From Gammaproteobacteria bacterium (GTDB taxonomy: Bacteria > Pseudomonadota > Gammaproteobacteria > UBA6429 > Thiohalophilaceae), in assembly GCA_029881995.1 (NCBI GenBank), contig JAOULO010000011.1:1-64000 (forward strand): a DNA stretch of 64,000 nucleotides, given 5' to 3'. Shown piece after piece: positions 35,076 to 42,989 of the stretch (positions are counted from its first letter, which is position 1; each line of letters opens with the position of its first letter). A model generated the notes under the pieces. It was not told where the DNA came from, did not search any database, and saw only the letters and a list, made by a program, of their open reading frames with translations. The position numbers and the translations under genes were made by a program.

Positions 35076-36497
35076 TTAAAGTTCAAACTTTGGACATTTT
35101 TTCGGTACTGCAACACCCTTGATACGAACATACTTGGGCATACCATCTTTATAAGGTGGGTAATCTTCACCCTTGATCAATGGCTCCATGTAGTCGCGAC
35201 AGGCTTTAGTAATACCGAAGCCATCTGGTGTGATGAAGTTATCAGGCATCATCTTCTCAACATTCGCTACCTTGGCAAGGTCGGCCATACCGACTTTCCA
35301 TTTGAAAGGTTTGTTGGAAGTACGAACCACGGTTGGCATCACGGAGTTGTGACCTTTAACTGCAAAGTCTACAGCCGCTTTACCCATGGCATAGGCCATG
35401 TCGACATCGGTTTTAGAAGCGATGTGACGGGCAGCACGTTGCAAGTAGTCAGCCACGGCCCAGTGGTTTTTCAGGCCAAGCTTGGACTGAATCATGCCAC
35501 TGATTACTGTGGCGGCACCACCGAGTTGGCTATGGCCAAAGGCATCTTTCAGACCGGTTTCGGCCAGGAAGCGACCGTCTGGGTAGTGAACACCTTCTGA
35601 TACGACAACTGAACAGTAACCAAACTTCTCGACCTTTTCTTTAACATTGGCCAGGAACTTCTCTTCGTTGAATTCCACTTCAGGGAACAGGATGACAATT
35701 GGAATGTGTGTGTCATCGGTAGAGGCCAGGCCACCGGCCGCTGCAATCCAGCCAGCGTGACGACCCATGACTTCAACAATGAAGACCTTGGTTGAGGTCT
35801 TGGCCATGGAGCCTACGTCGAAAGAGGCTTCACGAGTCGATACGGCAACATACTTGGCAACAGAACCAAAGCCTGGGCAGTTGTCAGTGATCGGCAGATC
35901 GTTATCAACGGTCTTGGGTACGTGGATAGCCTGGATAGGGAAACCCATTTCCTTAGACAGCTGAGAAATCTTGTAACAGGTATCAGCTGAGTCACCACCA
36001 CCGTTATAGAAGAAGTAACCGATATTGTGTGCCTTGAAGACTTCGATCAGGCGCTCGTATTCACGCTTGTTGGCTTCCAGTGATTTCAGTTTGAAACGGC
36101 AGGAACCAAAGGCACCCGATGGTGTATGACGCAGGGCAGAGATAGTCGCAGCGGATTCTTTGCTGGTATCGATCAGGTCTTCAGTCAGGGCGCCGATGAT
36201 TCCGTTACGGCCAGCATAGACTTTACCGATTTTGTTGCTCTTACGAGCGGCTTCGATGACGCCCGCAGCAGAGGCATTAATGACCGCAGTTACACCACCA
36301 GACTGTGCATAGAAGGCATTTTTAGGTGGAACTTTAGGCTTGGATTTCTTTTTAGCCTTTTTCTTGGCTTTTTTCTTAGCAGGTTTCTTTTTAGCAACTT
36401 TCTTCTTCGCCTTTTTCTTGGCGACTTTCTTTTTGGATTTTTTCTTTGCTACTTTTTTCTTAGCAACTTTCTTCTTGGCTTTTTTCTTAGCGGCCAT
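35076..36497 (-). CDS. PPi-type 6-phosphofructokinase with an N-terminal lysine-rich tail
   Basis: A 473-residue protein. Residues 60-473 are a long-form phosphofructokinase of the PPi-dependent class: 'YAQSGGVTAVIN' (about 63-74), 'GGGDS' at 166-170, where the Asp replaces the ATP-type Gly, 'PKTVDNDLP' (194-202) and 'MGRHAGW'. It interconverts fructose-6-phosphate and fructose-1,6-bisphosphate with pyrophosphate and can run in both directions. Residues 3-59 are almost only Lys, Ala and Val: eleven 'KKK' triplets separated by A, VA, S or PA, about 36 lysines in all. The start at 36497 has a 'CGAGGAGATC' ribosome-binding site, so the tail is translated. No enzyme relative known to me has this tail. 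Confidence 0.9.
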   Translation of the reverse strand: MAAKKKAKKKVAKKKVAKKKSKKKVAKKKAKKKVAKKKPAKKKAKKKAKKKSKPKVPPKNAFYAQSGGVTAVINASAAGVIEAARKSNKIGKVYAGRNGIIGALTEDLIDTSKESAATISALRHTPSGAFGSCRFKLKSLEANKREYERLIEVFKAHNIGYFFYNGGGDSADTCYKISQLSKEMGFPIQAIHVPKTVDNDLPITDNCPGFGSVAKYVAVSTREASFDVGSMAKTSTKVFIVEVMGRHAGWIAAAGGLASTDDTHIPIVILFPEVEFNEEKFLANVKEKVEKFGYCSVVVSEGVHYPDGRFLAETGLKDAFGHSQLGGAATVISGMIQSKLGLKNHWAVADYLQRAARHIASKTDVDMAYAMGKAAVDFAVKGHNSVMPTVVRTSNKPFKWKVGMADLAKVANVEKMMPDNFITPDGFGITKACRDYMEPLIKGEDYPPYKDGMPKYVRIKGVAVPKKCPKFEL

Positions 36498-36556
36498 GAG
36501 TTTCGATCTCCTCGTTGTGATTTTAATTTAAAGGCGGTAGAGGCCAGAGGTACGGC

Positions 36557-36901
36557 TTATTTAATTGCCCCTTGTTTTTTCAATTCGTGGTCTGCCTGGA
36601 CACGTAGGGTTGAGAGCAGGCAGTCACTCAAGTCATCGTAAAAATCTTTTCCAGTGCTAAATTGTTCTTCAGGGCCATAGAAAAACTGGCTGGCAAATTC
36701 ACCCTCGCCAGTTTTGGCCAGTACGAAATGACAATCTTTATGTTCCCAGTAAACGGCCGGGCAGACATAGAGCTGTTCGTCATCTTTCGATGGCATTTCG
36801 ATATCAACGTGTTCTGTTTCGACGGATTTGCCGTAACGTTCAGCCAGGGTGTCTTCAATGAGTTTGGCTTCGGATTCAGTAAAGTCAGGTGTCTTGCTCA
36901 T
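36557..36901 (-). CDS. Hypothetical acidic protein, 114 residues
   Basis: I do not recognise this protein. It is soluble and acidic, with no signal peptide. It contains 'CPAVYWEHKDCHFVLAKTGEG' in the middle and a helical C-terminal third. It is on the same strand as, and 59 bases upstream of, the phosphofructokinase, and could be cotranscribed. Coding is supported by position between same-strand genes and by lack of an alternative frame with a good start. Confidence 0.68.
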   Translation of the reverse strand: MSKTPDFTESEAKLIEDTLAERYGKSVETEHVDIEMPSKDDEQLYVCPAVYWEHKDCHFVLAKTGEGEFASQFFYGPEEQFSTGKDFYDDLSDCLLSTLRVQADHELKKQGAIK

Positions 36902-40774: not shown

Positions 40775-42133
40775 TTACAAAATATATCTACTCAAATCTT
40801 CGTTCTCGACCAGACTGCCTACATTCTCATCGACATAGCTGGCGTCGATGGTCACGCTGTCCCCGGCATGATCCGATGCGGTAAATGAAATCTCTTCCAG
40901 TAATCTTTCCAGTACCGTATGCAAACGACGGGCACCGATATTTTCAGTCCGTTCATTCACCTGCCAGGCCACTTCGGCCAGGCGTTTTATGCCGTCATCG
41001 GTGAATGTCAGTGTGACATCTTCGGTGGATAACAGGGCACAATACTGTTCTGTTAAAGAGGCGTTGGGCTCAGTAAGGATGCGGACAAAATCTTCAGTGG
41101 TCAGCGCCTTCAGTTCAACACGAATGGGAAAGCGACCCTGCAATTCGGGAATCAGGTCAGAGGGTTTTGATAAATGGAATGCACCGGAGGCGATAAACAG
41201 GATGTGATCAGTTTTGACCTGGCCATACTTGGTGGAGACCGTTGAACCTTCCACTAATGGTAACAGGTCACGTTGCACTCCTTCACGTGAAACATCGGCA
41301 CCGCCACTGGTTTGTTCAGCGCGTTTGCAGATCTTATCCATTTCGTCGAGGAAAACGATGCCGTTCTGTTCGACATTTTCCAGTGCCTTTTCTTTCAGAT
41401 CTTCTTCGTTTATCAGGCGGGCGGCTTCTTCATCGGTCAGTAATTTTCGCGCCTGATGAATTGGTAGCTTGCGAGTCTTTTTCTTACCACCACCGAGATT
41501 CTGAAACATTCCCTGTAACTGGCTGGTCATTTCTTCCATGCCAGGCGGGGCCATGATCTCTACGCCCACACTGGGCGCACTGACTTCGATCTCAATTTCT
41601 TTGTCATCCAGATCGCCCTCACGCAGTTTCTTGCGAAACTTTTGCCGCGTGGCGTTTTCCTTTTCGGTTTCCTGTTCGGGTTCTTCGTCGGGGCTAAATC
41701 CAAAACGGACATCTCGTGCAGACGGTAACAGGATATTGAGAATGCGTTCCTCGGCGGCATCCTCTGCACGGTGTTGTACCTTGGTCATGGCCTGTTCGCG
41801 GGTCAGTTTGATGGCCGATTCCATCAGGTCGCGGATGATGGATTCCACATCTCGACCGATATAACCCACTTCGGTAAACTTGGTGGCTTCAATCTTTATA
41901 AAGGGTGCATTGGCCAGCTTGGCCAGGCGGCGTGCGATCTCGGTCTTACCGACACCGGTCGGTCCGATCATCAGGATATTCTTGGGGGTGATTTCGGCGC
42001 GCAGCTCTTCTTCGACGTGGGCACGGCGCCAGCGATTGCGCAGGGCAATGGCCACGGCGCGCTTGGCCTCATCCTGGCCAATAATATGATTGTCCAGTTC
42101 CTGGACGATCTCCCGGGGAGTCATGGTCGACAT
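40775..42133 (-). CDS. hslU: HslU, ATPase subunit of the HslVU protease
   Basis: A 452-residue AAA+ unfoldase. The start '[14 protein letters not shown]' matches the family. Walker A '[12 protein letters not shown]' is at about 57-68, Walker B '[10 protein letters not shown]' around 257-266, and the pore loop 'GYIGRD' near 91. The I-domain is the charged central stretch. The C-terminus 'DLSRYIL' docks into HslV. It unfolds substrates for the peptidase encoded immediately upstream; the gap between the genes is 3 bases. Confidence 0.97.
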
Positions 42134-42136
42134 GAA

Positions 42137-42688
42137 TTAGATTTCCAGTTCTTCGATAACAATATTGTGATTGGTATAGATGCAGATGTCGCCGGCGATA
42201 TTCAAGGCCTTCTCGACAATTGTTTTGGCATCTAAGTCAGTATTTTCCACCAGGGCGCGTGCCGAGGCCTGGGCAAAGGGTCCGCCGGAACCGATGGCGA
42301 TGATGCCCTGCTCGGGCTCGATGACATCACCGTTGCCAGAAATAATGAGTGAGGCCTCACTATCGGCCACGGCCAGCAGGGCTTCCAGGCGGCGCAGCGC
42401 ACGGTCGGTACGCCAGTCCTTGGCCATTTCCACTGCGGCGCGAACCAACTGGCCGGAGTGTTTTTCCAGCTTGGCTTCGAAATATTCAAACAGGGTAAAG
42501 GCGTCGGCGGTGCCGCCAGCAAATCCGGCGATGACCTTATCTTTATATAAGCGTCGTACCTTACGGGCATTGCCCTTCATGACTGTATTGCCCATAGTGA
42601 CCTGGCCATCGGCTCCGATGACCACTTTATTCTTGTCTCTGACCGAAAGGACGGTCGTGCCGCGATACTGTTCCACACCCTGCTCCAT
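42137..42688 (-). CDS. hslV: HslV, peptidase subunit of the HslVU protease
   Basis: About 183 residues from the ATG at 42688; the longer frame to 42925 is not coding because the family begins at '[10 protein letters not shown]'. The propeptide of about 10 residues is removed so that Thr11 ('[10 protein letters not shown]') becomes the catalytic N-terminus. '[11 protein letters not shown]' and '[14 protein letters not shown]' are typical. It forms a double hexamer with HslU for ATP-driven proteolysis. No strong ribosome-binding site is visible; a TACAAT hexamer 21 bases before the start could be a -10 element, giving a very short leader. Confidence 0.96.
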
Positions 42689-42989
42689 ATATATAAGAGG
42701 TGGCTGATTGTACACCAGCCGAGCGGGGATAGAAAAAACCTTGATATTAACCACGGGAAACAAGGGGATGAACCACGAACACTTGTTTAGCAGACGGACG
42801 TAGCCTGGTGAATGCCAGACCAGCGATGGTCTGGCTGACCTGTCTCGGAGCCACGAAAGTTGCGCCATGGATGGCGAGTCCTGCAATGGGAATATCGTCG
42901 TACTTAAACAAAATCCCCCGTCCATTTTCAGTTTGATTTCAGCTTCACTTGTTAGGCTTTATTCAGAGAAAGCTTTATTGGAGGTCAAT
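42689..42989. other. Divergent intergenic region with two perfect hairpins
   Basis: This 301-base gap between hslV (minus) and the cytochrome b561 gene (plus) holds no convincing gene. It contains GCCAGACC-AGCGAT-GGTCTGGC at 42814-42835 and CGCCAT-GG-ATGGCG at 42863-42876, plus ACCACGAA and CCACGAAAG motifs like those near the palindromic element at 40590. It should hold the promoters of both flanking genes. Confidence 0.55.

Follow-up and report, generated by a model that had tools for sequence, protein, structure and literature searches.

The window, i.e., the whole 64,000-nt stretch of DNA analyzed here, carries on its minus strand an ORF (35,076–36,497) that starts with ATG and encodes a PPi-dependent phosphofructokinase (PPi-PFK) of 473 amino acids, the N-terminus of which reads MAAKKKAKKKVAKKKVAKKKSKKKVAKKKAKKKVAKKKPAKKKAKKKAKKKSKPKVPPKNAFYAQSGG. 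Two segments can be told apart in the product—a disordered polylysine N-terminal tail covering residues 1–58 (36,324–36,497, minus strand), delimited by composition and pLDDT, and the phosphofructokinase core, residues 59–473 plus the stop codon (35,076–36,323, minus strand), recognized through PF00365, NF010675 and the structure 3hno. Model NF010675/PRK14072 scored 649 bits on the protein, against a cut-off of 273, and was covered from position 4 to 415 out of 416; the core matched 3hno with E = 1e-220. Both 3hno and 3k2q, which are tail-less, align with the protein from residue 58–59 onward. The GGGDS and PKTVDND motifs are invariant, with D169 and K195 constant across 16 homologues; we take the Asp in GGGDS and the Lys in PKTVDND to be the residues of PPi-type phosphofructokinases. 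By family and motifs, the core is a standard PPi-PFK, and PPi-dependent catalysis is predicted for it. A Shine-Dalgarno-like GAGGAG (36,508–36,513, minus strand) lies 10 nt 5' of the pfp ATG, bearing out the good ribosome-binding site described in the first-pass annotation. Directly upstream of pfp, the segment 36,557–36,901 (minus strand) encodes a small conserved protein of 114 amino acids that had no Pfam or NCBIfam match. The Phe/Leu-rich antisense ORF at 36,126–36,641 (plus strand) mirrors the lysine codons and was not counted as a gene. Elsewhere in the window, a gene for an AAA protein of the Cdc48 subfamily (40,775–42,133) adjoins a proteasome-fold gene (42,137–42,925) on the minus strand, an ordinary arrangement consistent with HslU/HslV.

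The tail comprises 35 Lys, 11 Ala, 5 Val, 4 Pro, 2 Ser and 1 Met, with 11 KKK triplets, no Asp or Glu and a net charge of +35. These figures agree with the earlier description of about 57 residues with eleven KKK triplets, and the further claim of a histone-H1-like, in-frame tail placed before a normal enzyme core also stood, the core beginning at residue 58–59. In an AlphaFold2 prediction built with 16 homologues, residues 1–54 had a pLDDT of ~37 and the fold began at the strand formed by residues 60–66, i.e., the tail is modeled as intrinsically disordered. It has the features of the H1-like class—low-complexity, Lys/Ala-rich, disordered and devoid of acidic residues—and a Pfam search of the protein matched no family besides PFK, the tail corresponding to no curated tail family. 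Scanning of pfp codons 2–72 for ATG, GTG, TTG, CTG and ATH returned none, such that no alternative start precedes codon 73. An internal start yielding a tail-less enzyme was therefore rejected, and a tail-less core could not be made unless the tail were removed afterwards. Recent DNA slippage was also rejected as the origin of the tail, since its Lys codons are mixed (AAA 19, AAG 16) as they are in the core.

Aligning homologous phosphofructokinases for the tail had been proposed as a check in the first-pass annotation, and this comparison was run. N-termini were read for 80 homologues from genome contigs and for 30 from genomes related to that of the window, and every one of the 28 PFKs examined in the window's own uncultured gammaproteobacterial family had a basic N-terminal tail—ranging from 12 to 81 residues, with MAAKKKAKKK... 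as the commonest wording. Nearly all outgroup PFKs, those of Betaproteobacteria included, have only 3–9 N-terminal residues such as MAKKNAF. Basic tails of other wording were found in a few PFKs (L008/L009, L013 and L020), and, on the core tree, the character 'ten or more K+R' must have switched at least nine times. Within the window's genome (G000), the codon pattern for KKKxKKK occurred at 38 sites, versus 0 for the reversed control; together with the conservation in relatives, this makes the tail more than a product of chance. The PFK tail is genuine and conserved, and it belongs to a larger pattern.

The extent of this pattern was explored by the codon-pattern search, which gives a lower bound of tailed proteins. 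The same genome contains a free-standing H1-like protein of 94 amino acids (L142, 1,954–2,238 on contig C27, plus strand), made up nearly entirely of KKKA-type repeats and without any family match, and KKKxKKK sites were also found on an HU/IHF-like protein (L145) and RNase R (L144). The variant KKKxxKKK is present on ribosomal protein uS2 (L176) and DksA (L177), the tail of the latter matching HC2 below the cut-off, and further carriers among the relatives are a ParB-like protein, a coiled-coil protein and, with a short basic leader, a thiolase of one relative (L183). Apart from PFK and a second adenylate kinase (Adk2), the tailed proteins are mostly DNA, RNA or ribosome proteins. The earlier remark that such a tail is not expected on a glycolytic enzyme holds insofar as the tail is unusual; it is, however, not peculiar to PFK, as Adk2 carries a longer tail and several nucleic-acid proteins the same repeat.

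Adk2 is encoded at positions 20–1,090 of L143 (contig C65 of G000, minus strand) and ends in a polylysine C-terminal tail of ~140 residues; the contig stops right after adk2, and several contigs of relatives stop within the repeat. The protein matched PF00406 and PF05191 (ADK fold and lid) as well as NF001380, with 303.5 bits against a cut-off of 251. Another adenylate kinase of canonical length (contig C18, 217-codon frame) shares 50% identity with Adk2 and is tail-less. We collected 65 Adk2-like sequences, defined by at least 55% identity or, for L202, by gene clustering, and a tail of at least 20 K+R was present in 57 of them. Contig ends truncate most of the others; L201 and L207 are the only complete sequences that lack a tail, and L019 is apparently broken. 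Among 39 other adenylate kinases, one had a tail. Complete Adk2 tails range from 90 to 293 residues, with medians of 185 residues, 72 K+R and 5 acidic residues. Because tails are found more widely among Adk2 sequences than among PFKs, the feature is probably older on Adk2. Co-variation of tail lengths between the two enzymes was rejected, no correlation being found (Spearman 0.07, n = 15).

On this basis, we propose that the polycationic tail tethers PPi-PFK and co-locates it with Adk2 on nucleic acid, a reading that has, in our judgment, about an even chance of being right. An oligomeric PPi-PFK would present several tails of ~+35 each, which could tether the enzyme to a polyanion, likeliest nucleic acid—be it the nucleoid, nascent RNA or polysomes—and the C-terminal tail of Adk2, being of the same type, would put both enzymes on one scaffold. 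On that scaffold, Adk2 and PPi-PFK might capture the AMP and PPi co-released by aminoacyl-tRNA synthetases, and the PPi released by polymerases. We infer the oligomeric state, the binding to nucleic acid, the co-localization and the metabolic purpose alike, and the choice of nucleic acid as the ligand is suggested by guilt by association with the tailed DNA and RNA proteins. The uncorrelated lengths of the PFK and Adk2 tails count against the tether, as do the location of pfp and adk2 on separate contigs in the window's genome and the basic leader on the metabolic thiolase.

Could the repeat instead be a lineage-wide, low-complexity lysine expansion that is tolerated and idle on the enzymes? 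Its occurrence on many proteins of the family and the variable length of the PFK tail, which does not track that of Adk2, are compatible with such a neutral origin, which we nevertheless regard as unlikely. Across 955 tail residues from the family, 547 are Lys, 18 are Arg and none is Glu or Asp—a notable absence, since a single transition suffices to convert AAR into GAR. Change is almost purely synonymous, the third position of the tail Lys codons varying freely and the first and second hardly at all. For tail codons 2–15 in 12 homologues, pN/pS was 0.035 (pN 0.029, pS 0.83) as compared to 0.101 in the aligned PFK core; these homologues were chosen by a lysine-requiring motif, which biases pN downward, and pS is close to saturation, such that constraint is shown more cleanly by the codon count. 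The mixed Lys codons argue against recent slippage, and the PFK of G005 is tailed although its core branches outside the main clade (AU p = 0.007, for a group picked after inspection of the tree). A Lys-rich tail also occurs on adenylate kinases of a different subgroup, in organisms that we take to be Alphaproteobacteria. Judged from the codons, the tail is maintained by selection, under a lysine-specific constraint.

The genomic surroundings of pfp bear on the metabolic role of the tailed enzymes. In the outgroup families, adk2 adjoins pfp, often together with hppA, a soluble pyrophosphatase gene (ppa) and a small gene. We compared two such small genes, flanked by pfp and adk2 in L193 and L196, with the 114-residue product encoded upstream of pfp in the window; both are homologous to it (41% and 47% identity), and the small protein may belong to the PPi module. 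RuBisCO and an H+-pyrophosphatase (H+-PPase) were present in six of six genomes tested and fructose-bisphosphatase in four of these, the window's genome included, which leaves a role of PPi-PFK as the sole fructose-bisphosphatase unsupported for G000. Judging by these enzymes, the host probably grows autotrophically and runs a PPi economy like that in which a route from PPi-PFK to H+-PPase was proposed for chemosynthetic symbionts (PMC4287430). The same route, together with the H+-PPase found in every genome tested and the position of hppA—immediately before adk2 in G020 and G003, and beside pfp in many outgroups—would suit tails that bind anionic membrane lipids and keep PPi-PFK and Adk2 near the H+-PPase, with PPi being handed to the pump. 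However, the tail has no hydrophobic anchor, and the other carriers of the repeat in the genome are DNA, RNA and ribosome proteins rather than membrane proteins; we hold this membrane reading to be quite improbable.

Polyphosphate granules are a further candidate, in that the tails would place PPi- and phosphate-handling enzymes at the polyphosphate store. AlgP of Pseudomonas aeruginosa, which has a Lys-rich repeat tail, depends on PPK for its localization to such granules (PMC9239181), and PPK1 was present in G017, G018 and G020, and PPK2 in G009, G014, G017 and G018. Against this, searches for PPK1 and PPK2 detected neither in G000 (97% complete), G003 or G016 (both 100% complete), all of which keep both tails, whereas the same searches gave matches in control genomes. 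Polyphosphate synthesis was therefore rejected as a general requirement, polyphosphate probably does not serve as the tails' general ligand, and the granule reading as a whole is very doubtful. The earlier proposals fare accordingly—of a tail that binds nucleic acid or polyphosphate, or localizes the enzyme, the polyanion-binding or localizing role is probable and the polyphosphate part is disfavored, and of the suggested link to PPi or polyphosphate chemistry, the PPi side persists in altered form, through the tailed Adk2 neighboring pfp and the H+-PPase in outgroups. That the tail draws in anionic substrates of the enzymes themselves (PPi, ATP, fructose bisphosphate) or condenses with nucleotides, altering kinetics with no fixed tether, would suit a disordered, +35 tail on two enzymes using polyanionic substrates, but is highly improbable given that the canonical adenylate kinase of the same genome and nearly all outgroup PFKs are tail-less and that the tails on uS2, DksA and HU would be left unexplained.

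Returning to the tether on nucleic acid, a wider formulation would treat PPi-PFK, Adk2 and H+-PPase as a pyrophosphate-energy module, the soluble members of which are brought together by their polycationic tails, on RNA or the nucleoid, near reactions that release AMP and PPi—an electrostatic bacterial metabolon that we consider rather unlikely. In bacteria, Lys-rich, H1-like tails are known from DNA-binding proteins; the family studied here retains them throughout on two core phosphoryl-transfer enzymes, the genes of which are neighbors in an outgroup pyrophosphate cluster. If the tails do tether, these bacteria would place the recycling of PPi and AMP on a polyanionic scaffold, and would offer a testable case of why metabolic enzymes gain polycationic tails, complete with a natural length series (12–81 residues on PFK, 90–293 on Adk2). 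We found no tailed adenylate kinase or tailed PPi-PFK in the open-access papers searched; the parts are of known kinds (H1-like tail, PPi-PFK and adenylate kinase), and their combination on a pyrophosphate cluster appears undescribed there.

Compared with the PPi-PFKs of NF010675/PRK14072 (3hno and 3k2q), the core of the window's enzyme (residues 59–473) aligns end to end and has the PPi-type motifs in common, whereas the known structures and most outgroup homologues begin M(A)KKNAF and are tail-less. Among adenylate kinases, a Lys-rich C-terminal tail also occurs in the NF010381/PRK13808 group (L211 and L212), presumably alphaproteobacterial as judged by that model; this is, however, another subgroup, on which Adk2 of the window's genome scores 226 bits against a cut-off of 426, and its tails are shorter and sparser. 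The C-terminal domains of AlgP and PhaF from Pseudomonas resemble the PFK tail in being disordered, Lys/Ala-rich and histone-H1-like, and they bind DNA—that of AlgP being also required for the spacing of polyphosphate granules (PMC9239181). Yet AlgP and PhaF are nucleoid or granule proteins with a C-terminal KPAA repeat, while PFK is a metabolic enzyme with N-terminal KKKA/KKKV repeats. Actinobacterial TopA and mycobacterial HupB, which lysine-rich repeats hold on DNA (PMC7398561, PMC5676037), likewise carry a Lys-rich tail on a folded bacterial protein; these proteins themselves act on DNA, whereas PFK and Adk act on metabolites.
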